From positions 3,162,001 to 3,226,000 of the forward strand of contig NZ_JACCFM010000001.1 in NCBI RefSeq assembly GCF_013410665.1: DNA of 64,000 nucleotides. Reading direction: 5' to 3'. Below the pieces are notes generated by a model. It did no database searches, was not told the DNA's origin, and worked only from the letters and a program-made list of their open reading frames with translations. The position numbers and the translations under genes are program-made. Numbering within the stretch: position 1 is the first letter of the stretch; each line of letters begins with the position of its first letter. This stretch comes from Leifsonia psychrotolerans. GTDB lineage: Bacteria; Actinomycetota; Actinomycetes; Actinomycetales; Microbacteriaceae. Below are positions 15,127 to 49,513 of this stretch, one piece after another.

Positions 15127-15240
15127 ACTTAGAGAGAGGCCGATTCGTTACTCGCATTGGTCGGATCTTTAGCCGTTCCTGTGGCATGATCGTCAGACAG
15201 GAATTGGATGTACGTTTCCTCCGTCGAAGTAGGTGAAAGT

Positions 15241-16749: not shown

Positions 16750-16756
16750 CGACAGC

Positions 16757-17776: not shown

Positions 17777-17986
17777 CCCATCCCATGAACCCGGCAGGGG
17801 CGGTCTCGTAAGAGGCAGGACCGTCCGTGCTGAACCGATGCACCAATCGGTTATCGCCGCAGAGGTACAGCCCAGACAACGATCCTGTGTCTACCCGTAC
17901 CTCGTGGCCATCGTCGCCTCTTGAGATCAATAGCAGCACCGAGTCAGCCATGGGGCTGGCCACCGACCAAACAACGGAGTTATTCG
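17777..17986 (+). promoter_or_regulatory. Intercistronic region with stem-loops before the first binding protein
   Basis: 210 bp without a gene. AACCGAT (17833-17839) pairs with ATCGGTT (17846-17852), and GGCGGTC near 17800 can pair with GACCGTC near 17820. No T-run follows. Stable structures here could let the binding-protein message accumulate independently of the permease message. No promoter stands out by eye. Confidence 0.35.
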
Positions 17987-18973
17987 ATGAAAACTAGCAA
18001 GAAGGTCACGTTCCTCGCCGCTGCAGCTGCGGTGGCACTCGCTCTCGCGGGCTGCTCGGCCAACGCCAGCACCGACGCAGGCGGCGACGGAGGTAGCGAC
18101 GAGGTGTACATCGCACTCGTCTCGAAGGGATTCCAGCACCAGTTCTGGCAGGCCGTGAAGACGGGCGCCGAGAACAAGGCCAAGGAGCTCGGCGTCAAGG
18201 TCACGTTCGAAGGCCCCGCCTCCGAGACTGAGATCGACAGCCAGCTGCAGATGCTGCAGGCCGCGATCGACAAGAAGCCCGACGCCATCGGCTACGCAGC
18301 CCTCGACCCCGAGGCCTGCATTCCGCTGATGGATGCCGCCAAGGCAGCCAGCATCCCGGTCGTTCAGTTCGACGCCGGGTGCAACAGCGACTACCCGCTG
18401 AGCATCGCAAAGACCGACAGCCTGGGCGCCGGCGCACTCGCTGCCGACAAGATGGCTGAGCTCATCGGTGGCAAGGGTGAGGTCGCAATCGTCGGTCACA
18501 GCCAGATCAACTCCACCGGTGTTGAACGTCGCGACGGCTTCGTCGACCAGATGAAGGCGTCATACCCCGACATCAAGATCGTCGACATCCAGTACGGCGA
18601 TGGCGACCACCTCAAGTCGGCTGACATTGCCAAGGCAATGCTCGCTGCACACCCGAACCTCAAGGGCATCTACGGCACCAACGAAGGCTCCGCCATCGGC
18701 GTCGTCAACGCTGTCGGCGAGCTGGGCCTGAAGGCTGGCGCTGTCACCATCGTCGGCTTCGACTCGGGCCAGGCACAGATCGACGCGATCAACAACGGCA
18801 CCATGGCCGGCGCGATCACGCAGAACCCGATCGGCATCGGCGAGGCAACCGTTCAGGCTGCATTCGACGCCATCAACGGCAAGACCCCGGAGAAGGTCAT
18901 CGACACCGGTTACTACTGGTACGACAAGACCAACATGGAAGACGCCAAGATTGCGGCGGTTCTCTACAAGTAA
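17987..18973 (+). CDS. Sugar ABC transporter substrate-binding lipoprotein 1 (RbsB-like)
   Basis: 328 aa. A signal sequence ends in the lipobox LALAGC (Cys about residue 23), then comes a periplasmic-binding fold type I: YIALVSKGFQHQFW near the N-terminus, FEGPASETEIDSQLQMLQ, and YGTNEGSAIGVVNAVGELG. The ATG at 17987 follows GGAG; the longer ORF start adds a non-signal-like stretch and is rejected. It is very similar over its whole length to the protein at 20159-21142, so the operon carries two receptors for one channel. Confidence 0.93.
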   Translation: MKTSKKVTFLAAAAAVALALAGCSANASTDAGGDGGSDEVYIALVSKGFQHQFWQAVKTGAENKAKELGVKVTFEGPASETEIDSQLQMLQAAIDKKPDAIGYAALDPEACIPLMDAAKAASIPVVQFDAGCNSDYPLSIAKTDSLGAGALAADKMAELIGGKGEVAIVGHSQINSTGVERRDGFVDQMKASYPDIKIVDIQYGDGDHLKSADIAKAMLAAHPNLKGIYGTNEGSAIGVVNAVGELGLKAGAVTIVGFDSGQAQIDAINNGTMAGAITQNPIGIGEATVQAAFDAINGKTPEKVIDTGYYWYDKTNMEDAKIAAVLYK

Positions 18974-25088: not shown

Positions 25089-26587
25089 CAGTGACCTGCC
25101 CTCTTCGAGTACCACGGCGCCAGGCTGGTGTAGGCGTCGAGAAAAAGCTCATGCCGAGCGGTGTACCCGGCGTGCGCGGCGGCATCCGGAGTGAACTCGG
25201 CGGTCACCTCGGACAGCCCGCGGGCCGCGTCGAAGCCGTCGACGAGGCCGAGGCCCACCGCGGCGGTGACCGCGGCCCCGAGGCTGTTCGCCTCTTCGAC
25301 GATGGTGCGCCGACGCACACTAACGCCCCAGATGTCGGCCATGATCTGCAGCCAGGTGTCGCTGGCCGCGCCGCCGCCGATCGCGTCGATGCTGTCAATC
25401 GTGGCGCCGGCCTCACGGAACGCCTCGATGCAGGTGCGCAGGTTGAACGCGACGCCCTCGAGCACCGCACGCGTCATCTCGGCACGCCCGTGGTGTCGGC
25501 CGATGCCGACGAATGCGCCGGCGGCATCCGGGTTCCAATGCGGCGAGCGTTCGCCCAGCAGATAGGGCAGAAAGTAGAGTCCGCTGGCCGAGCCCTGGGC
25601 GGTGTTGGCGTCGGCGACCAGCTGGGGCAGATTTGCGGATGCCGCGTCGGGGCTGAGCAGCTCGGTCACCCACTGCAGGGCAGCGCCGCCGGCCTGCATG
25701 GTGGCCGTCGGTACATAGCTGCCGGGCACCACGTTGTCGAAGGTCATGGTGCGCATGAGCGGGTCGAGCACCGGCGTGTCGCTCACAAACGAGATCCAGG
25801 CGGAGGTGCCCAGGCAGACGTAGGCGCCGTCGGTGGGGGCAACGATTCCGGCGCCGACCGCGGCGATCGGGCCGTCGCCGCCGCCCATCACCACGCGGGT
25901 TCCGCGGGCCAGGCCGAGCGTGCTCGCCGCGGCATCCGTGAGGGGGCCCACGATGCTCGTCGCATCGAGGATTTCGGGGAACAGTGCGACATCGAGGCCG
26001 GCAGCGGCCAGCATCTCGGCCGACCAGACGCCATTCGTCTGGTCATAGGCGTTGGTCGCCGAGGCGTCGGAGCGGTCGGTCGCCAAGCGGCCGGTGAGAC
26101 GCTGCAGGACGAAATCCTTGGCGATGCAAAAGTGCCGCACGCGGTCGAACACGTCAGGCTCGTTGTCACGCACCCACATGATCTTCTCGAGCGAGTAGGT
26201 GGGGTTGATGCGATGACCGGTCAGGGCGTAGGCGCGCTCCTGACCGATCACGGCTTCAAGCTGCGCGGTTTGGGCGGTGCTTCTGGTGTCGGCCCAGATC
26301 ATCGCGGCACGCACGGGGTTGTAGCTCGCGTCGAGCAGAACGGCGCCCATCATCTGGCCGCTCACGGACAGCCCCGTGACCTGGACGGGGGTGACGCCGG
26401 AGCGGGCGATGAGTGTTCTCGTCGCCTGGACGACGGCATCCCACCAGTCCTCGGGGTTCTGCTCGGCGAGGCCGCCCTCGGCGAAGTGAGCGCCGTAGTT
26501 GACGGTCACCGCGGTGACCAGGCGGCCGTCATCCTCATGCAGCGAGGCCTTGTTGCCCGTCGTCCCGAGGTCGTGCGCGATGATCAT
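25088..26587 (-). CDS. FGGY-family carbohydrate kinase, xylulokinase-like
   Basis: 499 aa with both FGGY domains: N-terminal HDLGTTGNKASLH, SVSGQMMGAVLLD and WADTRS, and C-terminal MGGGDGPIAAVGAGIV followed by CLGTSAWISF. Length and motifs resemble xylulokinases. It should phosphorylate a ketose, polyol or sugar acid with ATP. The operon partners (cupin isomerase, KDPG-type aldolase, two dehydrogenases, lactonase) do not match a pathway I know. D-ribulose from the D-arabinose isomerase at 47551 is one possible substrate. Confidence 0.9.
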   Translation of the reverse strand: MIIAHDLGTTGNKASLHEDDGRLVTAVTVNYGAHFAEGGLAEQNPEDWWDAVVQATRTLIARSGVTPVQVTGLSVSGQMMGAVLLDASYNPVRAAMIWADTRSTAQTAQLEAVIGQERAYALTGHRINPTYSLEKIMWVRDNEPDVFDRVRHFCIAKDFVLQRLTGRLATDRSDASATNAYDQTNGVWSAEMLAAAGLDVALFPEILDATSIVGPLTDAAASTLGLARGTRVVMGGGDGPIAAVGAGIVAPTDGAYVCLGTSAWISFVSDTPVLDPLMRTMTFDNVVPGSYVPTATMQAGGAALQWVTELLSPDAASANLPQLVADANTAQGSASGLYFLPYLLGERSPHWNPDAAGAFVGIGRHHGRAEMTRAVLEGVAFNLRTCIEAFREAGATIDSIDAIGGGAASDTWLQIMADIWGVSVRRRTIVEEANSLGAAVTAAVGLGLVDGFDAARGLSEVTAEFTPDAAAHAGYTARHELFLDAYTSLAPWYSKRAGH

Positions 26588-26593
26588 GAGTGA

Positions 26594-33096: not shown

Positions 33097-33300
33097 TTAC
33101 ATGCTGCTGATCCGGATCGGTCGCTGAGACTCGCGCGAAAGGTTGAACGCGATCGTGGTCAGCACGAGCCAGGCCGCGATGGCCATGAACACCCCTGACG
33201 GCAGGTGAGCTAGCGCGCTGTGCTTCAGGTCTGCGTTCATCTGCTCGATGATGGCATGCTGCCGGTGGCCGTCTGGCTGCGGAGGTGTTTCACCGAAGTG
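33097..33300 (-). pseudogene. 3' remnant of an IS1380-family-like transposase
   Basis: Read on the minus strand, the frame ending at a TAA (33097-33099) encodes a tail with HAIIEQMNADLKHSALAHLP, then SGVFMAIAAWLVLTTIAFNL and SRESQRPIRI. This matches the conserved C-terminus of IS1380-type DDE transposases (VEQ..DLK.GPLAHLPSG.F..N.AWLVL...AFNL). The catalytic domain is absent and the match stops near 33300, so it is a dead fragment. I see no terminal inverted repeats. Confidence 0.75.
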
Positions 33301-33452
33301 CCCCGGCAGTTAGCCACGCGTCGGTGAGGTCGCTGAGCCCGGCTTTCACCGCTCAACTCGACCGGTGGATCGAGGCCAGAGCGATGTTCGGGCCCACGGC
33401 GACTCTCGGCGACTCTCGGCGGATCGGCCGGCTCTGTGCCTGCCGCAGGTTC

Positions 33453-37701: not shown

Positions 37702-37713
37702 GAAATCGATTTC
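37702..37713. promoter_or_regulatory. LacI operator, site 1 of 4
   Basis: GAAATCGATTTC, a perfect 12-bp palindrome, lies 30 bp before the ATG of the DUF4185 lipoprotein gene and next to its promoter. Same sequence at 38921 and 44730, one-base variant at 43601. The adjacent LacI protein (43694) is the likely binder. Confidence 0.85.
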
Positions 37714-37742
37714 GCTAAGGTGGGCATGGATCAAGGAGGATC

Positions 37743-38897
37743 ATGCCCGATGAACATTCCCAACGCGCACGTCGTGTCTCCGTCGGAATATCCGCGCTTT
37801 TGGCTCTCGCGCTCTCGGCCTGTTCGGGAGTGTCGAGTGTGAACGTGGACTCGAATCCGGATAAGCCGTTCGTGCTTGACCGGGTGTCGAATCTGACCGA
37901 AATCGCACAGCTAACAGGCCCGGGCGCGATCAATGACACCGCGTCCGTTGCGGTCGCAGGGACCGATCTGGGTTCGATGATCAACGTCGGCGACCGAACC
38001 TACTTTCTGTTCGGCGATACCTTCGGCGAGCGAGACCCCGACTCCATTGGAGGGCAGGGTGGTTTCTGGCGCTCGAATGTCGCCGCATGGACGACAGACG
38101 ATGACCCGAGCGACGGCATTATCTTTGACGGCTGGGTGGAAGATGAGGTCGGGCTTGCCGCTGCGCTCAGCGAAGGCGATCACGACGCTAACGGGGCCGG
38201 CGGTGAAGTCACGAAGATCCCCAGCTATGGATTTGCGATTGGTGACACACTCTACGTCTCGTACATGTCGGTGCGGTTTTGGGGGGAACCTGGTGCCTGG
38301 GATGCGAATCGTTCTGCGTTGATTGTGTCGCGCGACGACGGTCAGACGTGGACGCCGGTTGAGGGTGTGGAGTGGCCGGGTGACTCGAATTTCGTTCAAG
38401 TCGCGACGCTGCCTGTCACCGAGGGCGGCACCGACTACATCTACTTCTGGTCGATCCCGTCTGGCCGGTTTGGCGGTGTGCAGCTCATGCGCGTGCCTGC
38501 CACTGAAAAGGCCGTGGAGCGTCAGGTGTCTTACTCCTACTTCGCAGGGACTGATGGTGAGACCCCGAAGTGGAGCACCAATATCGCCGATGCCGAGGCT
38601 GTCGTCGAAGGCACGATCGGCGAACTTTCGGTGATCTGGTCGACCTACTTGGACCGCTGGATCATGAGCTATTCGGATGCCGGCAGCGCCTATGTTCGAG
38701 AGGGTGTCACGCCCTGGGGGCCGTGGGGTGAGCCGATCGAGTTGGTCTCTGGGGATGACTACCCAGGGCTGTACTCGCCCTACCTGAATCCCCGTTACGT
38801 CTCCGACGATGGGCGCACCATCTTCTTCACGTTGTCGCTCTGGGGGCCCTACAACGTGTTCTGGTTCTCGGCCGACCTTGAGCGTGTCGCATCCTGA
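37743..38897 (+). CDS. DUF4185-domain lipoprotein, candidate GH183 endo-D-arabinanase
   Basis: 384 aa. Signal peptide ending in the lipobox LALSAC (about residue 29), so it is tethered outside the membrane. A DUF4185 beta-propeller covers about residues 50-380, with the hallmark VAGTDLGSMINVGDRTYFLF then GDTFGERD and repeated W/F-rich blades (YIYFWSIPSGRFGG, SPYLNPRYVSDD). DUF4185 proteins have been shown to include endo-D-arabinanases (GH183). It has AAGGAGG before ATG 37743 and operator 1 upstream. Its own transcription unit, with an importer next door, suggests surface cleavage of a D-arabinofuranosyl polymer. The substrate is inferred. Confidence 0.82.
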   Translation: MPDEHSQRARRVSVGISALLALALSACSGVSSVNVDSNPDKPFVLDRVSNLTEIAQLTGPGAINDTASVAVAGTDLGSMINVGDRTYFLFGDTFGERDPDSIGGQGGFWRSNVAAWTTDDDPSDGIIFDGWVEDEVGLAAALSEGDHDANGAGGEVTKIPSYGFAIGDTLYVSYMSVRFWGEPGAWDANRSALIVSRDDGQTWTPVEGVEWPGDSNFVQVATLPVTEGGTDYIYFWSIPSGRFGGVQLMRVPATEKAVERQVSYSYFAGTDGETPKWSTNIADAEAVVEGTIGELSVIWSTYLDRWIMSYSDAGSAYVREGVTPWGPWGEPIELVSGDDYPGLYSPYLNPRYVSDDGRTIFFTLSLWGPYNVFWFSADLERVAS

Positions 38898-38920
38898 AGT
38901 CCGCTGAAATGCTTGCGCAT

Positions 38921-38932
38921 GAAATCGATTTC
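38921..38932. promoter_or_regulatory. LacI operator, site 2 of 4
   Basis: GAAATCGATTTC again, flanked by ATG.. and ..GCAT so the dyad extends imperfectly. It lies 118 bp before the binding-protein start at 39050, in the intergenic promoter region. Confidence 0.85.
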
Positions 38933-39049
38933 GCATAACCTGGCGCTTACCCGGTCACCGAGGATCCACAGGCACGACCGGTGTCCTCCGGCATCAGCCG
39001 GGTACACAGCAGCGACTCGACGACGAGTCGCGTTCCTGAGGAGGAACCC

Positions 39050-40420
39050 ATGAGAAAGAGCACGACACGTATTCGTCGTACAGTCATCGCCGCTCTGAGC
39101 GCACTGACCGTCGGCACGATGCTTGCGGCCTGCGGGTCCGGCACGCCCGGAGAATCCGCGGGTGGTGATGGTGCCGCTGGCGGTGCCTCCACAGTTCAGT
39201 TCTGGCACCGCACTTTCACACCGACCGAGAACGAGTGGTACGCGGACATCGTCAAGAAGTTCAACGCATCACAGGACAAGATCAAAGTGGTCGGCACTGA
39301 GGTTCCTGCGGATGCCTGGGACCAGAAGATGAAGTCCGCGCAGGCCGCCGGAAAGGCCCCTGATGTCTACACGCACTCGGGTCCGATCCAGGATGCGGTC
39401 AACGCTGGCCAACTCCATGAGCTCAACGGAATCGTCCCCGACGACGCACTGGGCGAGATCATCGATTCCGCGCGTGCGGTCTCGGCTATCGGAGACAAGT
39501 TCTACGCCTATCCACTTCTGCTTGAGCCTCAGACCGTGCTGTTCTGGAACAAGGACCTGCTGGATGGCGCGGGTGTTGACTCCACGAATGGCCCGCAGAC
39601 GTGGGACGAGTTGCTCGCTGCGTGCGCAAAGATCAAGCCCACATTGGCCGATGGCCAGTACTGCATCTCGCCGGCCTCTGATGCAGTCACTTTCGCATGG
39701 TCGACCCACGGGCAGCAGTACAACTTCTCCGGCCACACGGCCCTCAACGGCGCTTGGACCAAACCGGACATTAATAATGACGGCTACAAGAACCTCATGC
39801 TTTCGTATAAGAAGCTGTGGGATGAGGGATATATGGCCAAGCAGGCGTTGGGCGCCTACGTTGAAGGCACTGACTTCGGCCAGGAGAAGGTTGCGTTCAA
39901 GGTCTCTGGTTCTTGGATGATGTCTGAGATCGGGTCTGACTTCAAGGAGTTGCTGCCCAAGACCGGCATCGGCGCGTTCCCGAATGCGGCGGACTCTTCT
40001 GGTCGCGGCGCCACCACGCTGGGCAACTTCAAGTGGGTCGTCGACGCGAAGTCCAAAAATGCTCAAGCCGCAGGCGAGTTCCTCGCCTGGGCCATCGCGG
40101 GTGACCCTGCGAACCTGGTGCCATTCTTCGTGAACACGCAGTTCACCAAGGTGCCCGTGCGCATGTCGGTACAGGATGCAGTTGCGGGTGACCAGGCGGC
40201 AGCCGACGCACCCTGGTCGTCAGTCATCACCAATGACATCGCACCCACGGCCATTCCTGAGCCCACCTTCCCGTGGGATGTCTCGCTCGCGGTCGGTACG
40301 GCGATGGAATCCGTGATGAAGGGCGCATCATCCGTCGACGATGCGATAAGCACCGCGGACCAGGCAATCCAGACTGTCATTGATCGCGATGGTCTTCCTG
40401 CCAAGGCACCGAAGAACTAG
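39050..40420 (+). CDS. Oligosaccharide ABC transporter substrate-binding lipoprotein (family 1)
   Basis: 456 aa. Signal peptide with twin-Arg-free charged start (RKSTTRIRR) and lipobox MLAACG (Cys near 28). Family 1 (MalE/UgpB-like) fold: VQFWHRTFTPTENEWYADIV, then AGKAPDVYTHSGPIQDAVNA, FYAYPLLLEPQTVLFWNKDL and GSWMMSEIG. ATG 39050 with GAGGAGGAAC is preferred over the upstream ORF start. It should capture oligosaccharides released by the DUF4185 enzyme and pass them to the two permeases downstream. No ATPase gene is present, so a shared MsiK-like ATPase elsewhere is expected. Confidence 0.92.
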   Translation: MRKSTTRIRRTVIAALSALTVGTMLAACGSGTPGESAGGDGAAGGASTVQFWHRTFTPTENEWYADIVKKFNASQDKIKVVGTEVPADAWDQKMKSAQAAGKAPDVYTHSGPIQDAVNAGQLHELNGIVPDDALGEIIDSARAVSAIGDKFYAYPLLLEPQTVLFWNKDLLDGAGVDSTNGPQTWDELLAACAKIKPTLADGQYCISPASDAVTFAWSTHGQQYNFSGHTALNGAWTKPDINNDGYKNLMLSYKKLWDEGYMAKQALGAYVEGTDFGQEKVAFKVSGSWMMSEIGSDFKELLPKTGIGAFPNAADSSGRGATTLGNFKWVVDAKSKNAQAAGEFLAWAIAGDPANLVPFFVNTQFTKVPVRMSVQDAVAGDQAAADAPWSSVITNDIAPTAIPEPTFPWDVSLAVGTAMESVMKGASSVDDAISTADQAIQTVIDRDGLPAKAPKN

Positions 40421-40434
40421 CAACACTCGCACCG

Positions 40435-40462
40435 TTCGGGGGCTGGTCACCCAGCCCCCGAA
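40435..40462 (+). terminator. Intercistronic stem-loop after the binding-protein gene
   Basis: TTCGGGGGCTGG (40435-40446) pairs perfectly with CCAGCCCCCGAA (40451-40462) around a 4-nt loop. As at 2991-3024 it separates binding-protein and permease genes and probably sets their mRNA ratio. Confidence 0.65.
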
Positions 40463-40495
40463 CCTTCGGTTCAGACCGGAAAGGAACGGGACACA

Positions 40496-41452
40496 TTGTT
40501 GACCATCGACGTAGTGAGTGAACCGAAGGCCCTGCGTGAAAGCGCGACCAAAAAAGAGCAGCGTCAGCGTCGCGATCGCCATCGATTCCGCGATAACAGT
40601 GTTGCGTACTGGTTCTTGTTGCCCGTATTGATCCTGCTCGGCACCTTCGTCATTTGGCCCGCGATCTACGCAATCTTCCTGTCCTTCCAAGACTGGAGTT
40701 TTTACAAAGAACCGGTGTTCGTCGGCTGGAAAAACTTCTCCGATGTGCTGAGCGACCGCCTGTTTTGGCGGGCACTCGGGCGTGGCTTCCAATTCGTCCT
40801 TCTGACGGTGCCTCCGATGCTGCTTCTGGCCTTCTTCTTCGCCAGCCTCGTGGTCAGCGTCGCACGTCGATTTGCAAGCGTTTTGAAGGTCAGCATCTAT
40901 ATTCCGACCATCATCTCTGCCGTTATCACCTCGATCATCTTTGTGCTGATCTACGACTATTCCGGAGGCCTGCTCAACGCGGCACTCGGCGTCTTCGGGA
41001 CCGAGCCGATCGCCTGGCTCGGTGAACCGGCGTGGTCGCTGATTGCAATCGCGGTCCCGGCAATCTGGCTCGGGATGGGACTCACATCGCTCATCATGGT
41101 GGCGGCAATGGTCGACATTCCCACTGAGTTCTACGAGGCTGCTTCCATGGAGGGAGCCAACTGGTGGCAGAAGACGTTCTACATCACGTTGCCCCAGATG
41201 AAGAACATCTTGCTCTACCTGATGATCACCGGGTTCGTTGCCGCCATCCAGCAGTTCGAGCTGCCGCTGGTCATGACAGGCGGTGGCCCGCTGGATTCCA
41301 CGACACTGCCGAACCTGTTCATCTTCAATCACTTCCGCAACGACATGAATGTCGGGTATTCGATCGCAGCGGCGCTGCTGCTCTTCGTCGTGCTGGGCAC
41401 GGTATCGGCCGCCATCTTCAAATTCGTGAACTCCGAAAGGCTGGTCGACTGA
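40496..41452 (+). CDS. Sugar ABC transporter permease, MalF type
   Basis: 318 aa with six membrane helices. A polar N-terminal tail of about 40 residues is followed by NSVAYWFLLPVLILLGTFVIWPAIYAIFLSFQDWSF, the usual opening of MalF/UgpA-type subunits, with the coupling loop EFYEAASMEGANWWQKTFYITLP near residue 210. The start is uncertain: TTG 40496 or 40499, with AAGGAACGGG upstream. Its stop overlaps the next ATG. Confidence 0.9.
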   Translation: MLTIDVVSEPKALRESATKKEQRQRRDRHRFRDNSVAYWFLLPVLILLGTFVIWPAIYAIFLSFQDWSFYKEPVFVGWKNFSDVLSDRLFWRALGRGFQFVLLTVPPMLLLAFFFASLVVSVARRFASVLKVSIYIPTIISAVITSIIFVLIYDYSGGLLNAALGVFGTEPIAWLGEPAWSLIAIAVPAIWLGMGLTSLIMVAAMVDIPTEFYEAASMEGANWWQKTFYITLPQMKNILLYLMITGFVAAIQQFELPLVMTGGGPLDSTTLPNLFIFNHFRNDMNVGYSIAAALLLFVVLGTVSAAIFKFVNSERLVD

Positions 41453-42318
41453 TGGCCACTACACAGGCTCTTCCGACCGCGCAGCACTCCAAGCACGACA
41501 CGGCGTGGTGGCTGTATGCCGCGGGCAAGCTGATCGTCGGTGTCGTCTTCGTGCTCGCGGCCCTGTTCCCGCTCGCCTGGATGATCATCGCCGGGTTCAA
41601 GTCGAAGACCGAAGTTATCTCGACACCGTTTCAGTTCTTCCCTGAGGTCTGGCTGTGGCAGAACTACGCGCAGATCCTCGCGGACCCGGCCTTCGTTCGC
41701 ACCTTCGTGTGGACACTGCTCGGGGCGATTCTGTTCACCCTGCTCGCCCTCGCGATCAACTCGCTCGCGGCTTACGCTTTTGCGCGGTTGGAATTCCGGT
41801 TCAAAGGTGCGCTCTGGGTGATCGTCATCACGACGCTCTTCATTCCGGGCATGACGATCTTGTTGACCAGCTTCATCGTCGTCACGAGACTTCAGATGCT
41901 TGACACTCTTGCGGTCCTGGTGATCCCCGGGGCAGCCAGCGCCGGCATGGTTTTCTTCATCCGGCAGTTCTACCTGAATATCCCGCTATCTCTGGAGGAG
42001 GCGGCGATGCTCGATGGCTGCAACCGCTTCACGATCTTCTGGCGGCTGTTCGTCCCCCTGTCCAAACCGCCGTTCATCGTGATGGGAATCACGGCATTTT
42101 TGGCCTATTGGAACTCGTACGTCTGGCCCATCCTGACAATCACCAGCCCCGAGCGGTTTGTTCTCCAGCAGTACCTGGCGACCTTCCGCTCCGAGCGCAG
42201 CACAGAGCTCGGCCTCCTAATGGCCGGATCCGTGTTGGCAGCGGCGCCCGTCGTGATTATCTTCTTGATCTTTCAGCGTCAGATCATCGGCAACATCAAG
42301 ATGGCGGGGCTTAAGTAG
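41452..42318 (+). CDS. Sugar ABC transporter permease, MalG type
   Basis: 288 aa, partner of the preceding permease. It opens with a short tail and AGKLIVGVVFVLAALFPLAWMIIAGFKS, has SFIVVTRLQMLDTLAVLVIPGAAS and the coupling loop IPLSLEEAAMLDGCNRFTIFWRLFVPL, and ends QRQIIGNIKMAGLK, the usual MalG/UgpE terminus. ATG 41452 overlaps the upstream TGA. Convergent with the GH172 gene. Confidence 0.93.
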   Translation: MATTQALPTAQHSKHDTAWWLYAAGKLIVGVVFVLAALFPLAWMIIAGFKSKTEVISTPFQFFPEVWLWQNYAQILADPAFVRTFVWTLLGAILFTLLALAINSLAAYAFARLEFRFKGALWVIVITTLFIPGMTILLTSFIVVTRLQMLDTLAVLVIPGAASAGMVFFIRQFYLNIPLSLEEAAMLDGCNRFTIFWRLFVPLSKPPFIVMGITAFLAYWNSYVWPILTITSPERFVLQQYLATFRSERSTELGLLMAGSVLAAAPVVIIFLIFQRQIIGNIKMAGLK

Positions 42319-42345
42319 CCTTCCGCTGTGGCGGGACAGGAACAG

Positions 42346-42382
42346 CGACAGCGCCGCGGAGGCATGCCCCGCGGCGCTGTCG
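42346..42382. terminator. Stem-loop between convergent permease and GH172 genes
   Basis: CGACAGCGCCGCGG (42346-42359) and CCGCGGCGCTGTCG (42369-42382) pair perfectly with a 9-nt loop. Both genes end within 30 bp, so it can serve both directions. Confidence 0.75.
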
Positions 42383-42397
42383 TCGTGCATCACATTC

Positions 42398-43531
42398 TCA
42401 GTCCCGCGGAGCCCGCGGCGGAGTGGATCCGATGTCGGGCACCGGGGCGGTTCCTAGGTGTACCTCCATGTCGTCGGCCGACGGTGACTGAGGGCGCCGC
42501 GCGGTCGGCCGGTCGAGATAGAACATTGCGGTCGAGGCGATGTCGTCGCGCAATGGCAGGTATCGCCACCCGCTGCGCCAGCCGAGCGCCTGGATGTCAA
42601 CCTTGGGGATGCCAGTAGTGAAGTGGATTGGGTCGAGCAAATGCCAGCGATACATTCCGAAACGCTGCTGTGAGTCGTACAGCCCATCGGGGCGGATCAC
42701 CTGGGGCATACCCAGATAGGGTGTTGAGAACTCCGTGTAGCCCTGGCCGGGAATATCGAAGTTCCAGGCTCCCCCGAAGTAGTCCTCGGTTCCGGTGCCG
42801 CAGATCGTCGGGAAGTCGGTGTCGTCGTCGAGGTAGAACTTAATCTCGCCTTCGCCCCACCAACCGTTCGAGTTCACGCCCCACGCGATGTAGGTGCCGA
42901 CATACTGCCCGTGCCCCTCGATCCCCTCCAAGATCGTGTGTGGGACGAGGTCTTCGAGCGGGTTCGATCGGCGCCATTGGGCATGGAAATAGGCCTCGTT
43001 GGAGTAGTCTCCGCCGATTTCGTACGTGATTTGGTAGTACACGCGGACATCTACGACAGAGGTGTTCTCGATCGTCAGACGGGCTCCGTCTCGAAACGGC
43101 ATCGGCCAATATGAGTTAAAGCCACCCAGCGGGTTTGCGGCGATCGCTTGAGAGTTGACCTGTGCGAAAACGCCCCAGCCGTTGCAGAAGAAGTCCCCGT
43201 AGGGCACCTCGACTGCTGGCTCTGTGGCGCCATCCCAATAAGCTCTCAGCAGGAGGGTGCGCCAGTTGTCAGTGTGGGTAGTGATCCAAATGTGAGTGAT
43301 CTTGCCTGCACCGGAGATGGAGGCAAGATCGAGGGTCTCCCCGGCTTTGATATCCATGCTTGGAGAAATTTTCCAGCCGGGGCCAAGGTCGCGTGCACAG
43401 GAGGCGCCCGTGCCTTCGGTTGCTCGGCCGCCACCTCCCGCGGAGCCATCAAAATTCTCCGGAGAGATCGATCGTGTTTGCACGGTCCGCAGTGCGGAGA
43501 TCGATGCCAGGTCAGAGGGTGGGGGAGTCAT
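42398..43531 (-). CDS. DUF2961 protein, GH172-family glycosidase (candidate exo-alpha-D-arabinofuranosidase)
   Basis: 377 aa from ATG 43531 (AGGAAA before it); upstream in-frame extension lacks homology. DUF2961 jelly-roll pair: DLASISALRT at the start, ITHIWITTHTDNWRTLLLRA, then WWGEGEIKFYLDDDTDFPT and GTGTEDYFGGAW. Glu227/Glu229 and Glu249 sit in the motifs that hold the two catalytic carboxylates of characterised GH172 enzymes. GH172 comprises alpha-D-fructofuranosidases/difructose-anhydride synthases and alpha-D-arabinofuranosidases. No signal peptide, so it acts on imported oligosaccharides. Operator site 3 is upstream. Specificity for D-Araf is inferred from the DUF4185 neighbour. Confidence 0.88.
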   Translation of the reverse strand: MTPPPSDLASISALRTVQTRSISPENFDGSAGGGGRATEGTGASCARDLGPGWKISPSMDIKAGETLDLASISGAGKITHIWITTHTDNWRTLLLRAYWDGATEPAVEVPYGDFFCNGWGVFAQVNSQAIAANPLGGFNSYWPMPFRDGARLTIENTSVVDVRVYYQITYEIGGDYSNEAYFHAQWRRSNPLEDLVPHTILEGIEGHGQYVGTYIAWGVNSNGWWGEGEIKFYLDDDTDFPTICGTGTEDYFGGAWNFDIPGQGYTEFSTPYLGMPQVIRPDGLYDSQQRFGMYRWHLLDPIHFTTGIPKVDIQALGWRSGWRYLPLRDDIASTAMFYLDRPTARRPQSPSADDMEVHLGTAPVPDIGSTPPRAPRD

Positions 43532-43600
43532 TTTCCTGTTCACATCCTTGTGTAAGCGCAGCCGGCGGCGATTCCACCGCGCGGAGACAGTCTGATCAAT

Positions 43601-43612
43601 GTAATCGATTTC
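43601..43612. promoter_or_regulatory. LacI operator, site 3 of 4 (one mismatch)
   Basis: GTAATCGATTTC differs at one base from the other three sites. It lies between the divergent GH172 gene (start 43531) and the LacI gene (start 43694), so it could serve both repression of the hydrolase and autoregulation. Confidence 0.75.
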
Positions 43613-43693
43613 AGTCCTGATCGCCACAGATTGCTCTGCGCACGCTACTGTTGTTCACGTTCGGCTTGGCCGGACCAGGTAGTAAAGGTGGAC

Positions 43694-44680
43694 ATGGCCA
43701 CGATTTATGACGTCGCAGAGCTCGCCGGAGTGTCTCCCGCGACTGTCTCGCGTGTGTTCAACGGCGCGAGCGTCTCCGCGGCAAAGGTGGTGGCTGTTCG
43801 CGACGCAGCGAAGCAGCTGAAGTTCACCCCGAACCGTACGGCGCGGTCATTGCGGCGGCAGAGCTCCGAGGTTATCGCCCTCGTGATCCCGGACATTGAG
43901 AACCCATACTTCACGGAGATGGCACGCGGGGTAGAGGACGTCGCATCCGAAGCCGGATACTCGGTGGTGCTGTGCAACTCCGACTCGCAGGTCGACAAGG
44001 AGTCGACCTATCTGCAGATTGCGATCGCTGAGAACATGTCCGGGGTGATCATCGCGCCGGCATCCGATCAGACCAGCCTGGATAGCATTCTGTCCACGGG
44101 GCGCCCGGTAGTTGCCGTCGACCGAGGCGTTTCATACGACATCGATGGTGTGGTCATGGAGAACCGCTCCGCCGGAACGTCGGCAACGAAAGACCTGATC
44201 CGGGCTGGGTATAAGCGCATCGCTTACATCGGGGGACCCGAATCAATTGATACCGCAGCCGAGCGCGCGGCTGGGTGGCGCTCCGCCCTGGCCGCAGTTT
44301 TTCCCGCGCTCAACGCCGCCGAGTTGGCCCGTTTCGCCACCTTCCGCGTCGAGGGGGGACGCGAGGCGATGGAAGAGCTGTTGGCGCTTCCCGAGCCGCC
44401 GGATGCCGTCGTAGCCGGCAACAACCTCATCGGGGTCGGCGCGATCCAGGTACTGACCGAGAAGGGGTTGACGCCCCCACGGTTCGGAGTGGCGGTCATT
44501 GGTTCCCTTCCTTTCACCACGCTGTCGCCCACCGCAGTCACCGTGGTGCGCCTGCCGGCGCGGCACATGGGTGTCACGGCGGCACGGATGCTGCTCGAGC
44601 GCATCGGCGGCGACACGCAGCCAGCACGCACGGTGGTGCTGCGCAACGAGATCCAGCCGGCCTCCGCCATTCGCTCCTAA
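43694..44680 (+). CDS. LacI-family regulator of the glycan locus
   Basis: 328 aa. N-terminal LacI HTH (MATIYDVAELAGVSPATVSR, VFNGASVSAAKVV) and hinge SLRRQSSEVIALVIPDIENPYFTEMARGVED, then the sugar-binding-like effector domain. ATG 43694 after AAAGGTGGAC; the longer ORF start is rejected. It stands in the middle of the locus whose four promoters carry GAAATCGATTTC, with the central CG of LacI operators. The inducer is likely a mono- or oligosaccharide from the target glycan. Confidence 0.94.
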   Translation: MATIYDVAELAGVSPATVSRVFNGASVSAAKVVAVRDAAKQLKFTPNRTARSLRRQSSEVIALVIPDIENPYFTEMARGVEDVASEAGYSVVLCNSDSQVDKESTYLQIAIAENMSGVIIAPASDQTSLDSILSTGRPVVAVDRGVSYDIDGVVMENRSAGTSATKDLIRAGYKRIAYIGGPESIDTAAERAAGWRSALAAVFPALNAAELARFATFRVEGGREAMEELLALPEPPDAVVAGNNLIGVGAIQVLTEKGLTPPRFGVAVIGSLPFTTLSPTAVTVVRLPARHMGVTAARMLLERIGGDTQPARTVVLRNEIQPASAIRS

Positions 44681-44998
44681 GCGCCTCCCGTCGAATACGC
44701 GCGCACGTGGGTTTCATTACTTGCCATATGAAATCGATTTCGCGTACAGTGAGCGGAACGGTCGCGGGATCCACGTAATGATCGGGGCGAGTTTCGACGT
44801 CGGGTTCTTCGCCGCCGCCGCTGCCACAGTTCTCGCACCCGTCATAACCGATTGGAATCCAGTGAGCCAGACCGTCGCGCCGAACCCCGCCGCTCTTCAA
44901 GAAGCCGACGATTCGCATATGGATCGCCACGCGTGGCACCAGACTGGGTCGAAAGTGGGCGTCCACGAGCGAGCCGCGAGCCAACGCCGGGGCGACGC
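44681..44998 (+). promoter_or_regulatory. GH116 upstream region with LacI operator site 4
   Basis: GAAATCGATTTC at 44730-44741 marks the promoter. The first well-supported GH116 start is 258 bp further on, an unusually long leader. A short frame from ATG 44778 to a TGA at 45000-45002 (74 codons, Ala-rich then polar) overlaps the GH116 start as ATGA. It has no recognisable motif and could be a leader ORF or chance. In-frame TTG 44852 would add an Arg-rich extension without homology. Confidence 0.6.
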
Positions 44999-47554
44999 AT
45001 GAGCGAGCAGCGCCGCGCCCGCGGCATCCCCCACACTTCCCACGCAGCGGCCTTCCCGCTGGGCGGGATCGGCACCGGAAATGTGTCGCTTGGCGCACGA
45101 GGGGAGCTCCGCGATTGGGAATTCGAGAACCTGCCTGACAAGGGTCGCCGAAACCCCTACTCTTTTTTCGCCATCCACGCGGCTCCCGCTGGAGGGACAG
45201 CGGTGACGCGCGTGCTGGAAGCGAGGCTCACCGGGCGGCACGATGCCGATGCCGGCTACGCCTTTGACCAGTTAGCTGGACTCCCGCGGCTGGACTCAGC
45301 GATGCTTCACGGCGAGTACCCGGTCGTCGACATTGATTTCGCCGATGCTGCTTTGCCGGTCGAAGTCACGCTTCATGGCTTCACTCCGTTCGTACCGCTT
45401 GACCCGGATGCGTCGGGCATTCCGGCGGCAGTGTTGCGGTATCGGGTCACTAACCCCGGTGTGGTTCCGGTCGTCGTCACGATCGCGGGCAGCGTGACCC
45501 ACACCGCCGGGCGGGGCGAGGGGCCGTGGGGAATGCGCGCGATGCAGACCGTGGGCTGGCGGGAGGAGGGAGCTGTGCGCGGCCTCGACTTCGGCATCGA
45601 CCTCCCCCCAGACGATCACGGCTATGGGACGCTCAGCCTGACGACGACCGATACCGCCACTACGGCCAAACCGCAGTGGGTGACCAGCTACTGGCCGGAC
45701 GGCGCGCGCCTGTTCTGGAACGATCTTGCCGCCGACGGACTGCTCGACCCGGAGCCACGGTTGACTTTGGAGGACCGACCCCGCGGACTCTTTGCTGAGC
45801 TCGATGCTGATCCTGACGCCGCGCCGCTGAGTGAGGCAGAGATGATGGCGAAGCTGCCGCGGATCCGTACCGGCTCCCTGGGTATCGTGCACACCGTGGC
45901 ACCCGGGGAAAGTCAGGACTTTGAGTTCGTCCTCGCCTGGAGCTTTCCCAATCGACGCCGAGGGTGGAAGGGTCATATCGTCTTGGCCGACCCGAACGCC
46001 GACGACGTCGTGCAGAACCACTACGCCACTCTCTGGCCGGATGCCTGGGCAGCTGCGACGCACCTGCACACGCACCTTCCGGCGCTCGAGAAAGACACGG
46101 ACGCATTCGTCGAAGCGCTGTACGGAGGTAGCATCGACCCGGTGTTGTCCGAGGCGATCGGCGCGAACGTTGCCGCGGTGCGTTCGACGACGGGATTCGT
46201 TGTCGAGTCGCCCACACCGGAACTGGGCGCTGGCCCCGTTTTCGCGGCCTGGGAAGGCTCGTTCGACCACGGTGGATCCTGCGAGGGCACCTGCACGCAT
46301 GTCTGGTCATACGCTCAGACGCTGGCGTGGCTGTTCCCGAGCCTGGAGCGAAGTGCCCGACGTGCGGAGTTCCTGTTGGAGACCGATGAGACCGGCGCTC
46401 AGAAGTTCCGTGGCAACCGAGTATTCGGCGGCCCGAGCTGGTTCATGGGGCCTGCCGTCGATGGTCAGCTGGGCACGCTGCTGCGTCTGCACCGTGAATG
46501 GCGCTTCTCGGGTGACGAGGGATTCCTCGCGGAACTCTGGCCCGCGGCATCCGCCTCACTCGACTATGCGATCCGCGAGTGGGACCGCGACGGTGACGGG
46601 CTGCTCGACGGCGAACTTCACAATACCTACGACATCGAATTTCATGGCACTGAGCCGCTCGCGAACGGCCTCTTCCTTGCCGCACTTCGAGCGGGTGCAC
46701 GGATGGCCACGCATGTCGGCGAGACGGAGCGCGCGGCGGACTGGAATGGGCGAGCGGATCGCGTCGCCGCGGGTATGGACGAGATCCTCTGGAACGGAGA
46801 ATATTACCGACAGGTTATCGACGACCCCGACGAGCACCGGTACCAGTACGGTGACGGCGTGCTCTCCGACCAGCTCCTCGGTCAGTTCCACGCCTTCGTC
46901 GGCGGCCTCGGCTACCTGCTCCCGAAGAACAACGTCGACTCGGCGCTCGCCTCGATCGTCACGCACAACCACCGCGCTGACCTGTCCCGGCAGGAAAGCA
47001 CCCAGCGTGTCTATGCTCTGAATGATGAGGGTGGACTGCTGCTGGCCTCGTGGCCGACCGGCGGCCGGCCAGCGATCCCGTTTGTCTACTCGGACGAGGT
47101 CTGGACCGGCGTTGAGCATCAGCTTGCCGCATCCCTTCTCTTTGCCGGTCGCGTCGATGATGCGCTGACTATCGAGCGAGCGTTGCGCTCGCGATACGAC
47201 GGCGAGCACCGCAGCCCATGGAATGAGATCGAGTGTGGAAATCACTATGCTCGCTCGCTTGCATCGTGGGGGTTGCTTCTCGGCGTGACTGGCGTGCAGT
47301 GGGATGCGCCAACTCGGGCGCTCTCGTTTGCTCCCGCGGTGAGCGGCCCGTTTCGTAGCTTGTTTACCACGGGCTCCGGCTGGGGCCGCGTCGAGATTGA
47401 CGCGGGCGACCTCACTCTCCACCTCGATGGAGGATCGATTGACATCGACGAACTCCAGCTGTGCGGGGCGAGCCTCGCCCGCGACATCCGCATTCTCGCC
47501 GGGGAATCTCGCACGTTCCGGCACGCTCAGACCCCAACTCAGGAGACACCATGA
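44999..47554 (+). CDS. GH116-family glycosidase (beta-glucosidase/xylosidase type)
   Basis: 851 aa. An N-terminal beta-sandwich (AAFPLGGIGTGNVSLGARGELRDWEFEN) is followed by an (alpha/alpha)6 catalytic domain with GTCTHVWSYAQTLAWLFP, HNTYDIEFHG and SDEVWTGVEHQLAASLLF. Glu547 (DIE) and Asp699 (SDE) are 152 residues apart, the same spacing I recall for the nucleophile Glu441 and acid/base Asp593 of Thermoanaerobacterium TxGH116. No signal peptide is visible, so it is cytoplasmic and acts on imported sugar. GH116 enzymes cleave beta-glucosides, beta-xylosides or related linkages, so the imported oligosaccharide may be mixed. Its end overlaps the isomerase gene (ATGA). Confidence 0.9.
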   Translation: MSEQRRARGIPHTSHAAAFPLGGIGTGNVSLGARGELRDWEFENLPDKGRRNPYSFFAIHAAPAGGTAVTRVLEARLTGRHDADAGYAFDQLAGLPRLDSAMLHGEYPVVDIDFADAALPVEVTLHGFTPFVPLDPDASGIPAAVLRYRVTNPGVVPVVVTIAGSVTHTAGRGEGPWGMRAMQTVGWREEGAVRGLDFGIDLPPDDHGYGTLSLTTTDTATTAKPQWVTSYWPDGARLFWNDLAADGLLDPEPRLTLEDRPRGLFAELDADPDAAPLSEAEMMAKLPRIRTGSLGIVHTVAPGESQDFEFVLAWSFPNRRRGWKGHIVLADPNADDVVQNHYATLWPDAWAAATHLHTHLPALEKDTDAFVEALYGGSIDPVLSEAIGANVAAVRSTTGFVVESPTPELGAGPVFAAWEGSFDHGGSCEGTCTHVWSYAQTLAWLFPSLERSARRAEFLLETDETGAQKFRGNRVFGGPSWFMGPAVDGQLGTLLRLHREWRFSGDEGFLAELWPAASASLDYAIREWDRDGDGLLDGELHNTYDIEFHGTEPLANGLFLAALRAGARMATHVGETERAADWNGRADRVAAGMDEILWNGEYYRQVIDDPDEHRYQYGDGVLSDQLLGQFHAFVGGLGYLLPKNNVDSALASIVTHNHRADLSRQESTQRVYALNDEGGLLLASWPTGGRPAIPFVYSDEVWTGVEHQLAASLLFAGRVDDALTIERALRSRYDGEHRSPWNEIECGNHYARSLASWGLLLGVTGVQWDAPTRALSFAPAVSGPFRSLFTTGSGWGRVEIDAGDLTLHLDGGSIDIDELQLCGASLARDIRILAGESRTFRHAQTPTQETP

Positions 47555-49185
47555 CCACGTACACCCTGCCCACCGCGGCCGTACGGCCGACGAAGGCACC
47601 CCAGACCGCCTACCTGATCGCCTCCGGCGACCTGCGAGAGTCGGCGAACACGGCGGGCTGGCCGACACAGGTCGAACTCGAGGCGGGTGTCACGGGCGTG
47701 CTGAACGGCTTTGGTTGGACGGTCATCCGCGCCAATGGTGTCGATCCGGCCACGGGCCACGGCTTCATTTCCAGCCAGCGAATGGGGCTTGAGGTGTTCA
47801 AGAACATCCCCGTTGATGCGCCCCTCATCGTGGCCGAGGCCGTGTGGCAGTACTCGCATCACGTGCTCGCGGGCCTTCGCACCCACCAGGGCCCGATCCT
47901 CACGGTCGCGAACTTTGCCGGTGACTGGCCCGGGCTCGTCGGCCTGCTCGGGCTCAATGCGGGCCTGACGAAGATGGACAAGCCGTATGCGTCAATCTGG
48001 TCCGTCGACTTCAGCGACGACTGGTTCAAAGCGGGCATTAAAGAGTGGACCGAGACCGGTGCGATCACCCACGATGACTCGCACGTGCGCGCATTGCCGG
48101 AACTACCGGCAAGCCCCGAGCGCGAGCTGGGTGAGGCGCTCGCCGCCGAGTTGCTCGCTGACAAGGCCATCATTGGCGTGTTCGATGAGGGCTGCATGGG
48201 AATGTACAACGCGATCTTCGACGACGAATTACTGAACAAGACCGGCATTTACAAGGAGCGGCTGTCGCAGTCGGCGCTCTACGCCGAAATGCTCACCGTG
48301 ACGGATGCCGAAGCTGACGATGCGTACATGTGGCTCACCGACCGCGGGATGGTCTTCAACTACGGCGAGGATGCGGCCACCGAGCTCACCCGCGATCAGG
48401 TGCAGTGGCAGCTGAAGATGTACATCGCCGCACTCCGCATCGCCGATGATTTCGGGCTTGACGCGGCTGGCATCCAGTACCAGCAGGGCTTGAAAGACCT
48501 CGTTCCGGCCTCCGATCTCGCCGAAGGACTGCTGAACTCGACCGAACGCCCGCCGGTGACCTCGCGCAACGGCGCGCGCGTGCTGCACGAGGGGCGCGCC
48601 TTCCCGCACTTCAACGAGGCCGACGAGGGGGTCGCTGTCGACGCTCTCGTCACCGACCGGGTGTGGACCGCGATGGGCCTCATCCCCGACAACACTCTGC
48701 ATGACGTGCGCTGGGGTGAGGATTACAACGGCCAGTTCGTCTGGGCCTACGAGATCTCTGGCTCCGTTCCCGGATCGCACCTTGGCGGATGGGACAAGGC
48801 CGAGGGATGGCGGCAGGGGCACGTCTTCTTCCCGGCCGGCGGCGCGACAATCAACGGGGTCTCCAAGCCGGGGGAGGTCGTGTTGTCGCGCGTCTTCATC
48901 GCCGACGGGATCCTGCAGGCTGACATTTTTCGGGCATCCGTCGTCGAACTCCCCGCAGAGGAGACGAAGCGCCGCAAGGAGGCCACGAACCCGGAGTGGC
49001 CGATCGCGCACGTCGTGTTGCATGGCATCTCGCGTGACCAATTCATGGCTCGCCACAAGGCGAACCACGTTCAACTCGTTTACGCTCCCACCACCGAGAT
49101 TGCCGACAAAGCACTCGTCGCGAAGGCCGCGATGTTTGCGGGCATGGGCATCGCAGTGCACGTCGTCGGAGACGTGGCGATGTGA
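47551..49185 (+). CDS. L-fucose-isomerase-like protein, candidate D-arabinose isomerase
   Basis: 544 aa, L-fucose/L-arabinose isomerase-like fold (COG2407 type). Landmarks are APLIVAEAVWQYSHHVLAGL, VFDEGCMGMYNAIFDD, DFGLDAAGIQYQQGLKDLVP and the C-terminal GISRDQFMARHKANHVQLVYA with conserved Glu, Asp and His that could ligate metal. L-fucose isomerases also convert D-arabinose to D-ribulose, since the two sugars share stereochemistry at C2-C4. It is translationally coupled to GH116 and under operator site 4, so it likely handles the monosaccharide released in the cytoplasm. ATG 47551 follows AGGAGA. D-arabinose as substrate is an inference. Confidence 0.78.
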   Translation: MTTYTLPTAAVRPTKAPQTAYLIASGDLRESANTAGWPTQVELEAGVTGVLNGFGWTVIRANGVDPATGHGFISSQRMGLEVFKNIPVDAPLIVAEAVWQYSHHVLAGLRTHQGPILTVANFAGDWPGLVGLLGLNAGLTKMDKPYASIWSVDFSDDWFKAGIKEWTETGAITHDDSHVRALPELPASPERELGEALAAELLADKAIIGVFDEGCMGMYNAIFDDELLNKTGIYKERLSQSALYAEMLTVTDAEADDAYMWLTDRGMVFNYGEDAATELTRDQVQWQLKMYIAALRIADDFGLDAAGIQYQQGLKDLVPASDLAEGLLNSTERPPVTSRNGARVLHEGRAFPHFNEADEGVAVDALVTDRVWTAMGLIPDNTLHDVRWGEDYNGQFVWAYEISGSVPGSHLGGWDKAEGWRQGHVFFPAGGATINGVSKPGEVVLSRVFIADGILQADIFRASVVELPAEETKRRKEATNPEWPIAHVVLHGISRDQFMARHKANHVQLVYAPTTEIADKALVAKAAMFAGMGIAVHVVGDVAM

Positions 49186-49198
49186 GCAGCGTCCGGCG

Positions 49199-49513
49199 CT
49201 ACTCGCCTTCGTGCAGGGGCGCCGAGGTGAGGGTCAGAAACTCGAGTACCGAGCCGTCGCCCTCGATGTGCGGCAGCAATGCCTCGTTGAACGGTCCGCC
49301 GGCGGGCGACGCCACGTGCGCGTCGAATGCGGCCTGATCGAGGTACTGCTCGTACACGACGAACGAGTGGTCGTCGTCGACGCGGGTGCTCGGCTCGAAC
49401 AGCACGTTTCCGGGTTCCTCGCGCACGACCTCGGCGAAGGCGTCGATAAGCGCACGGACCTCGTCGCGGTGGCCGGGCTTGGCCTGGAATGTGGCGATCA
49501 ATGTGGTGCTCAT
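49199..49513 (-). CDS. Antibiotic-biosynthesis-monooxygenase (ABM) domain protein
   Basis: 104 aa ferredoxin-like ABM domain: TTLIATFQAKPGHRDEVRALI, then PGNVLFEPSTRVDDDHSFVVYEQYLDQAAFDAH and HIEGDGSVLEFLTL. Small dimeric members include quinol monooxygenases such as YgiN and heme- or stress-related proteins. No cofactor motif is needed in the family. It is convergent with the isomerase gene and divergent from the methyltransferase gene; no functional link to either is evident. Confidence 0.85.
   Translation of the reverse strand: MSTTLIATFQAKPGHRDEVRALIDAFAEVVREEPGNVLFEPSTRVDDDHSFVVYEQYLDQAAFDAHVASPAGGPFNEALLPHIEGDGSVLEFLTLTSAPLHEGE

Follow-up and report, generated by a model that had tools for sequence, protein, structure and literature searches.

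Which glycan does the gene set at 37.7-49.2 kb of the window (the whole 64,000-nucleotide stretch analysed here) serve, and how did it come to stand in this host? By Pfam the set comprises a lipoprotein GH183, an importer, a GH172 protein, a LacI-family regulator, a GH116 protein and a fucose-isomerase-like protein. The eight genes of the initial annotation lie where they had been placed, at 37743-49185, and Pfam upholds their families (Table 1). Two features are added here: a kinase remnant at 44778-45002 and another operon of this genome, outside the window, that carries the operator. An extracellular GH183, an importer, an intracellular GH172 and GH116, and an isomerase make up the composition of the D-arabinan loci of Microbacterium, and the explanation that we favour, with considerable confidence, is that a Microbacterium-type D-arabinan utilisation locus was transferred into this genome and wired into a resident D-arabinose regulon, its kinase step probably being supplied in trans.

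Table 1. Genes, gene remnant and operators of the locus (window coordinates)
Feature	Position	Strand	Evidence or remark
GH183 (DUF4185) lipoprotein, probable endo-D-arabinanase	37743..38897	+	Pfam DUF4185 263.5 bits, cut-off 39.5
Solute-binding lipoprotein, CUT1-type ABC importer	39050..40420	+	Pfam SBP_bac_1 93.6 bits
ABC permease, UgpA/MalF type	40496..41452	+	Pfam BPD_transp_1; NCBIfam UgpA 79.3 bits, under its cut-off 335
ABC permease, UgpE/MalG type	41452..42318	+	Pfam BPD_transp_1; NCBIfam UgpE 100.4 bits, under its cut-off 297
GH172 (DUF2961), probable intracellular exo-alpha-D-arabinofuranosidase	42398..43531	-	Pfam DUF2961 286.9 bits; PDB 8ic8
LacI-family regulator	43694..44680	+	Pfam LacI + Peripla_BP
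FGGY sugar kinase remnant, C-terminal ~70 residues	44778..45002	+	tblastn; short open frame (in ORF 44499-45002) overlaps GH116 start
GH116, probable intracellular exo-beta-D-arabinofuranosidase	44999..47554	+	Pfam Glyco_hydr_116N/DUF608; PDB 8ic6
Fucose/D-arabinose-isomerase-like protein, probable D-arabinose isomerase	47551..49185	+	Pfam Fucose_iso_C 38 bits, cut-off 29.3
Operator GAAATCGATTTC, exact	37702..37713	.	upstream of GH183
Operator GAAATCGATTTC, exact	38921..38932	.	upstream of SBP gene
Operator GTAATCGATTTC, 1 mismatch to GAAATCGATTTC	43601..43612	.	between divergent GH172 and lacI
Operator GAAATCGATTTC, exact	44730..44741	.	upstream of kinase remnant/GH116

Read by eye, the N-termini of the GH183 protein (LSAC) and of the solute-binding protein (LAAC) carry lipoprotein-type signals, and the GH172, GH116 and isomerase proteins carry no signal sequence, in agreement with the earlier assignment of the DUF4185 enzyme to the outside of the cell and of the three others, as signal-less proteins, to its inside. 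The importer consists of a binding protein and two permeases, with no ATPase gene alongside. The start codon of the GH172 gene is a chosen one (its open frame extends to 43627), and with the start codons so chosen all four operators are intergenic. Beyond the isomerase gene, and before the native methyltransferase gene, lies a gene with an antibiotic-biosynthesis-monooxygenase domain (49199-49513); a search of Microbacterium loci and of an empty site gave no match to it at E <= 1e-8.

The two intracellular glycosidases bear most directly on the substrate. The GH172 protein matches ExoMA1 (PDB 8ic8), the crystallised exo-alpha-D-arabinofuranosidase of Microbacterium arabinogalactanolyticum, at 817 bits, and alphaFFase1 (7v1v), a difructose dianhydride I synthase/hydrolase, at 114 bits; the GH116 protein matches ExoMA2 (PDB 8ic6) at 1472 bits. 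Alignment with ExoMA1 (8ic8) and ExoMA2 (8ic6/8ic7) is nearly full length and the named catalytic and specificity residues are kept; the differences from those two enzymes are ones of sequence. Asn257 of the GH172 protein aligns with Asn253 of ExoMA1 (Gly in alphaFFase1), and among the best 80 of at least 593 related loci this residue is Asn in 75, Asp in four and Gly in one. According to the available part of the published structure comparison, N253 of ExoMA1 blocks fructofuranose (PMC10509167). In the GH116 protein E419, D545, H434 and R471 correspond to E431, D557, H446 and R483 of ExoMA2 (positions in chain 8ic6, counted by hand, equal the paper's numbers plus 4); they are the equivalents of its nucleophile, acid/base, His446 and Arg483 and are kept in the 19 relatives aligned. 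By similarity and specificity residues the two proteins thus fall in the ExoMA1 clade and in GH116 subfamily 4. Such close homology to characterised enzymes, together with the conserved specificity residues, lends good support to the prediction that D-arabinan is the substrate, the call that the initial annotation had made. It had also allowed for a fructofuranosyl glycan. The GH172 family does hold the difructose dianhydride enzyme, but service of a fructofuranosyl or other furanosyl glycan is very improbable here: Asn257 is the residue that blocks fructofuranose in ExoMA1, and GH116 and GH183 partners with a D-arabinose/fucose isomerase do not suit fructose. On these two grounds, Asn257 and the partner enzymes, fructofuranosyl glycans were rejected as the substrate. 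The GH116 protein, for which the initial annotation saw no place in known D-arabinan schemes, does fit one, since ExoMA2 is a GH116 exo-beta-D-arabinofuranosidase that, by the accessible text of PMC10509167, acts on beta-D-Araf ends; its predicted place would be at terminal beta-D-Araf.

The surface enzyme stands further from its characterised relative. It matches EndoMA1 (PDB 8hhv, an endo-alpha-D-arabinanase) at 148.4 bits, and its D75, D92, E294 and R242 correspond to the catalytic Asp33, Asp51 and Glu243 and to Arg198 of EndoMA1, and are invariant in a 29-row GH183 alignment. A quick tree of 29 GH183 proteins has an EndoMA1-like half and a half with the window protein, separated by a branch of 1.23. 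The predicted assignment of the DUF4185 protein to the endo-D-arabinanases has the kept catalytic residues in its favour, but its clade lies apart from that of crystallised EndoMA1. An EndoMA1-type protein (799 bits) is present in the related locus L022, and no other clear GH183 was found in the window's genome. The genome's second DUF4185 protein (L096:8689-9969, C1:~382.2-383.5 kb), a candidate GH183 partner, was left uncounted because its DUF4185 score is marginal (44.2 bits against a cut-off of 39.5) and it also matches DUF5005 (40 bits). The window GH183 gene adjoins the binding-protein gene, which is the place of MIAR_33320 in Mi. arabinogalactanolyticum, and a 383-aa protein of that species (P0075) is 73% identical to the window GH183. 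Four DUF4185 proteins have been published from this species, and P0075 was equated with MIAR_33320, and not with one of the other three, by gene order and not by locus tag; on that basis MIAR_33320 is the probable orthologue. The accessible part of PMC10509167 describes MIAR_33320 as insoluble in E. coli and uncharacterised. Because EndoMA1 is distant and this probable orthologue is uncharacterised, the predicted endo-D-arabinanase activity of the window clade rests on family and residues. The length of the branch to the EndoMA1 clade, the presence of a single GH183 in the window locus and the varied substrates of DUF4185 enzymes (in the published account, as far as available, only a subset act on P. 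aeruginosa pili) would suit a clade that cuts a related D-Araf glycan, such as a short linear D-arabinan of the pilin-glycan kind, and not arabinogalactan (AG) or lipoarabinomannan (LAM), so that the substrate would differ from that of the known locus. We regard this as unlikely, given that the partner enzymes are closely related to those completing the digestion of LAM/AG, that the catalytic residues are those of EndoMA1, and that P0075, a member of the clade, occurs in the AG-degrading species Mi. arabinogalactanolyticum. Beyond the actinobacteria, in Paenibacillus (L046:16845-21047 and L049:16858-21047), a GH183 of the window half (50-53%) is followed directly by a solute-binding protein and two permeases (36-65% identity), a GH183-importer module thus being shared with Bacillota.

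For the isomerase, a single-sequence search against solved structures gave no match at E <= 1. Its relationship to solved L-fucose and D-arabinose isomerases emerged with a 28-row profile, which matched D-arabinose isomerase 3a9r best (3.5e-9), followed by the L-fucose isomerases 4c22 (7.1e-7) and 1fui (1.7e-4). These matches are distant, the C-terminal fucose isomerase domain being common to all, and the window protein differs from all three as a member of a divergent subfamily. Residues E356, D385 and H506 are conserved in the 30 rows examined, and in the profile alignment a His of 3a9r stands opposite H506; the three are candidates for the Glu, Asp and His that bind the metal in these isomerases. 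The protein probably acts on D-arabinose, as far as sequence can tell; D-arabinose, L-fucose or both are possible.

Comparison of the GH172 protein with one genome per species (84,980 species) gave at least 593 matching stretches, the best 80 of which were kept; the top ten among these 80 are all from Microbacterium. In 13 loci (L011-L022 and L030) GH116, LacI, GH172 and isomerase are all present (the isomerase of L016 is cut by a contig end), together with some GH183 in each; the importer is missing only from L018. Eleven of these 13 Microbacterium/Sanguibacter loci have an FGGY kinase gene between lacI and GH116, a place at which the window holds only the remnant: in tblastn the kinase of L014 (7054-8583) matches 44681-44998 with 52% identity over 71 aa, covering kinase residues 430-499 (E 6e-18). 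The kinase is likewise absent from the loci of M. yannicii (L019) and M. psychrotolerans (L020), whose genomes hold no relative of it at E <= 1e-80, so that an in-locus kinase does not strictly define loci of this type. A different arrangement occurs in eight Streptomyces loci (L036, L038, L044, L048, L059, L074, L085, L087): GH172 (60-62%), isomerase (63-66%) and importer permease matches are found in all of them and a kinase in seven (not L087), no GH183 or GH116 match appears within the flanks fetched, and a scan of three of them (L036, L038, L044) found the exact operator in each.

The initial annotation described the gene set as a full route from D-arabinan to central metabolism. The predicted steps from surface enzyme to isomerase stand, but "full" is overstated, because the locus lacks the kinase step. 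Eight FGGY matches occur in the host genome. Among them is a kinase at C1:1877.6 kb that shares 60% identity with the L014 locus kinase. Its operon (C1:1877.6-1880.8 kb), of a type already present in the host genus, also encodes a LacI and another isomerase, which is 66% identical to that of the window; this kinase probably phosphorylates D-ribulose in trans. The proposal is weakened by the genomes of L019 and L020, with no relative of the kinase, and by four genomes of the host genus (G043, G052, G054, G055) whose native operons have the operator and the isomerase and no kinase at the site; other, less similar kinases may therefore serve. An FGGY protein within the window (25130-26593) was rejected as the missing kinase: it passes the NCBIfam xylulokinase model (404.6 over 380.25 bits) and is 29.6% identical to the locus kinase. 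The kinase remnant, like the lower G+C of part of the locus, might instead be the mark of a broken pathway, in a decaying locus that no longer supports growth. Such decay seems distinctly improbable to us: all the remaining genes have intact open frames, the four enzymes keep their conserved active sites, the operators are intact, a paralogous kinase exists under the same operator, and the two kinase-less Microbacterium species keep the rest of the locus.

Regulation provides the link between the locus and the operon at C1:1877.6 kb. The four matching operators reported earlier were recovered, three exact and one with a single mismatch, and the 64 kb hold no further GAAATCGATTTC site at <=1 mismatch. 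At <=2 mismatches there are six sites where 1.82 are expected, which is not striking, since 5 of 100 shuffles reach six. In the 3,820,245 bases of the contig, TGAAATCGATTTC occurs exactly at four sites, three of them in the locus (reversed-pattern control, none), and a single mismatch adds one place outside both loci, C1:3551227-3551239. The fourth exact operator (L095:9605) lies directly before the C1:1877.6 kb kinase, which starts at L095:9632. Between the window LacI and the paralogue there (L095:8571-9536) the N-terminal segment SPATVSRVFNG, which we take to be the recognition helix, is identical, and identity over the first 60 alignment columns is 72%. The exact operator is found one to four times in each of 16 relatives' genomes, and every one of these sites shares a contig with the locus. 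In the host genus 8 of 57 genomes have it, all among the 11 with the isomerase family (G004, G031 and G049 have the isomerase and no exact operator). Each of the seven genomes other than the host's has one site between a LacI gene and a kinase or isomerase gene, and G052 has one more site elsewhere. LacI would be expected to bind these operators and repress the transcription units of the locus. We tentatively suggest, as a possibility that falls somewhat short of an even chance, that the operator wired the locus in at once: donor and recipient, of different genera, would have shared the LacI operator of D-arabinose metabolism, and because the recipient's LacI-kinase-isomerase operon and the newcomer formed one regulon, the newcomer's kinase would have become dispensable and been deleted. 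What is conserved, and determines in which genomes loci of this kind can settle, would then be the operator and not the enzyme set. The operator marks D-arabinose-type regulons cleanly at the genome level and could be used to find such loci and to predict their regulons. Elsewhere in the window (15208-18973) is a CUT2 sugar ABC transporter (RbsA-type ATPase, permease and solute-binding protein); in four other genomes of the genus (L122, L126, L129, L130) the native LacI-isomerase operon adjoins a CUT2 monosaccharide transporter whose ATPase and binding protein are relatives (83-85%) of these, and in the present genome the two are far apart.

The origin of the locus was approached through gene distribution, phylogeny and flanking genes. 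At E <= 1e-100 the GH116 gene is present in 1 of 57 host-genus genomes, the host's own, and was not found in the other 56. In an isomerase tree of 43 rows the window copy is nested among Microbacterium sequences (97/98 for a 6-row set) and the second copy of the host groups with its own genus, and in a four-protein tree of 16 rows the locus nests in Microbacterium (4-row set, 100/99). Trees that keep the window outside a Microbacterium clade are rejected, both with Sanguibacter admitted to that clade (p-AU 0.002) and with Sanguibacter left out (p-AU 0.0035), the clades tested having been picked after the first tree was known; a stricter constraint that also forces Sanguibacter (L021) out of Microbacterium gives p-AU 1.8e-75, a value that overstates the case for transfer. 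The flanking genes are native, as HspR is 82-86% identical to its counterparts in four host-genus genomes and 56-61% identical to those of Microbacterium. DnaK of the host is 92-94% identical to that of four host-genus genomes, 87-89% to that of five Microbacterium and 89% to that of a Cryobacterium MAG (the L023 genome); by this measure the host is not a Microbacterium, and the last value tells against Cryobacterium. In G024 (L142) an hspR match is followed at ~145 bases by a match to the methyltransferase gene flanking the locus in the window, an arrangement that represents an empty site. The best reading is that the locus was transferred from within Microbacterium and sits between a native hspR and a native methyltransferase gene.

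The neighbourhood itself nevertheless leaves room for another history. In Microbacterium L013, L017, L019 and L020 hspR lies ~0.3-1.1 kb from the locus, as in the window (the distance is 7-12 kb in L148 and L149, from M. oxydans and M. aerolatum), so that vertical origin fits this feature as well: the locus would have stood at the dnaK-hspR site in a family ancestor and would since have disappeared from almost the entire genus. We give this history a small weight only, in view of the nesting within Microbacterium and the p-AU values above, the 56 host-genus genomes in which GH116 was not found, the empty hspR-methyltransferase site of G024 and the genus-like flanks. Base composition is a second odd point. 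The G+C of 37743-43531 is 0.595-0.610, against 0.649 and 0.679 in the host flanks and 0.68-0.71 in the Microbacterium loci, and a donor from Microbacterium does not account for so low a value; the G+C of lacI, GH116 and the isomerase gene (0.644-0.653) is close to that of the left flank. In the literature searched we found no paper joining D-arabinan with horizontal gene transfer, none joining D-arabinose isomerase, LacI and Microbacterium, and none joining D-arabinan with Cryobacterium.

On the favoured explanation, the locus would work as follows. At the cell surface the lipoprotein GH183 would cut alpha-D-arabinan from the arabinogalactan or lipoarabinomannan of mycobacteria or corynebacteria, and the oligosaccharides would enter by the binding-protein importer, presumably energised by an ATPase coded elsewhere. 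Inside the cell, GH116 may take off terminal beta-D-Araf and GH172 alpha-D-Araf; the isomerase would convert the released D-arabinose to D-ribulose, to be phosphorylated by a kinase outside the locus, probably the paralogue with the same operator at C1:1877.6 kb. LacI would repress the transcription units through the four operators, and the locus's own kinase gene has been cut down to a scrap. D-arabinan feeders are enzyme sources for dissecting the mycobacterial envelope. This locus shows the D-arabinan module in a genus otherwise without it (57 genomes), and is a natural minimal set, with one GH183; the enzyme of the 2023 paper that probably belongs to the same clade was insoluble, as far as that text is available (PMC10509167).

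The initial annotation implied that such a locus would be new in a non-mycobacterial actinobacterium; one was published in 2023. The accessible parts of Shimokawa et al. 2023 (PMC10509167) report from Mi. arabinogalactanolyticum the same gene set with the same division of labour, including isomerase and kinase, and induction of the glycoside hydrolase and solute-binding protein genes by D-arabinose and by mycobacterial cell wall extract. The kind of locus is thus already known, and what is new here is the separate GH183 clade, the kinase remnant, the operator common to a host operon and the probable Microbacterium origin. As far as the text at hand goes, families and order by locus tags are alike in the published polysaccharide utilisation locus (PUL), MIAR_33170-33320 (GH116 33170, GH172 33200, importer 33290-33310, GH183 33320), and both loci have two intracellular exo-enzymes and an isomerase. 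Unlike that PUL, the window locus has a single GH183 where the published one has four, lacks an EndoMA1-type enzyme, retains a remnant of the kinase gene and belongs to another genus; its host also differs from the published account in that the operator recurs before another operon of the genome, and in the available main text of PMC10509167 the string "laci" has no occurrence. A further parallel is PUL42 of Dysgonomonas gadei (Al-Jourani et al. 2023, PMC10115798), which, by the accessible portion of that paper, likewise combines GH183, GH172 and a predicted fucose isomerase for D-arabinan; it is a PUL of the Bacteroidota, whereas the window locus has an ABC importer and a LacI regulator.
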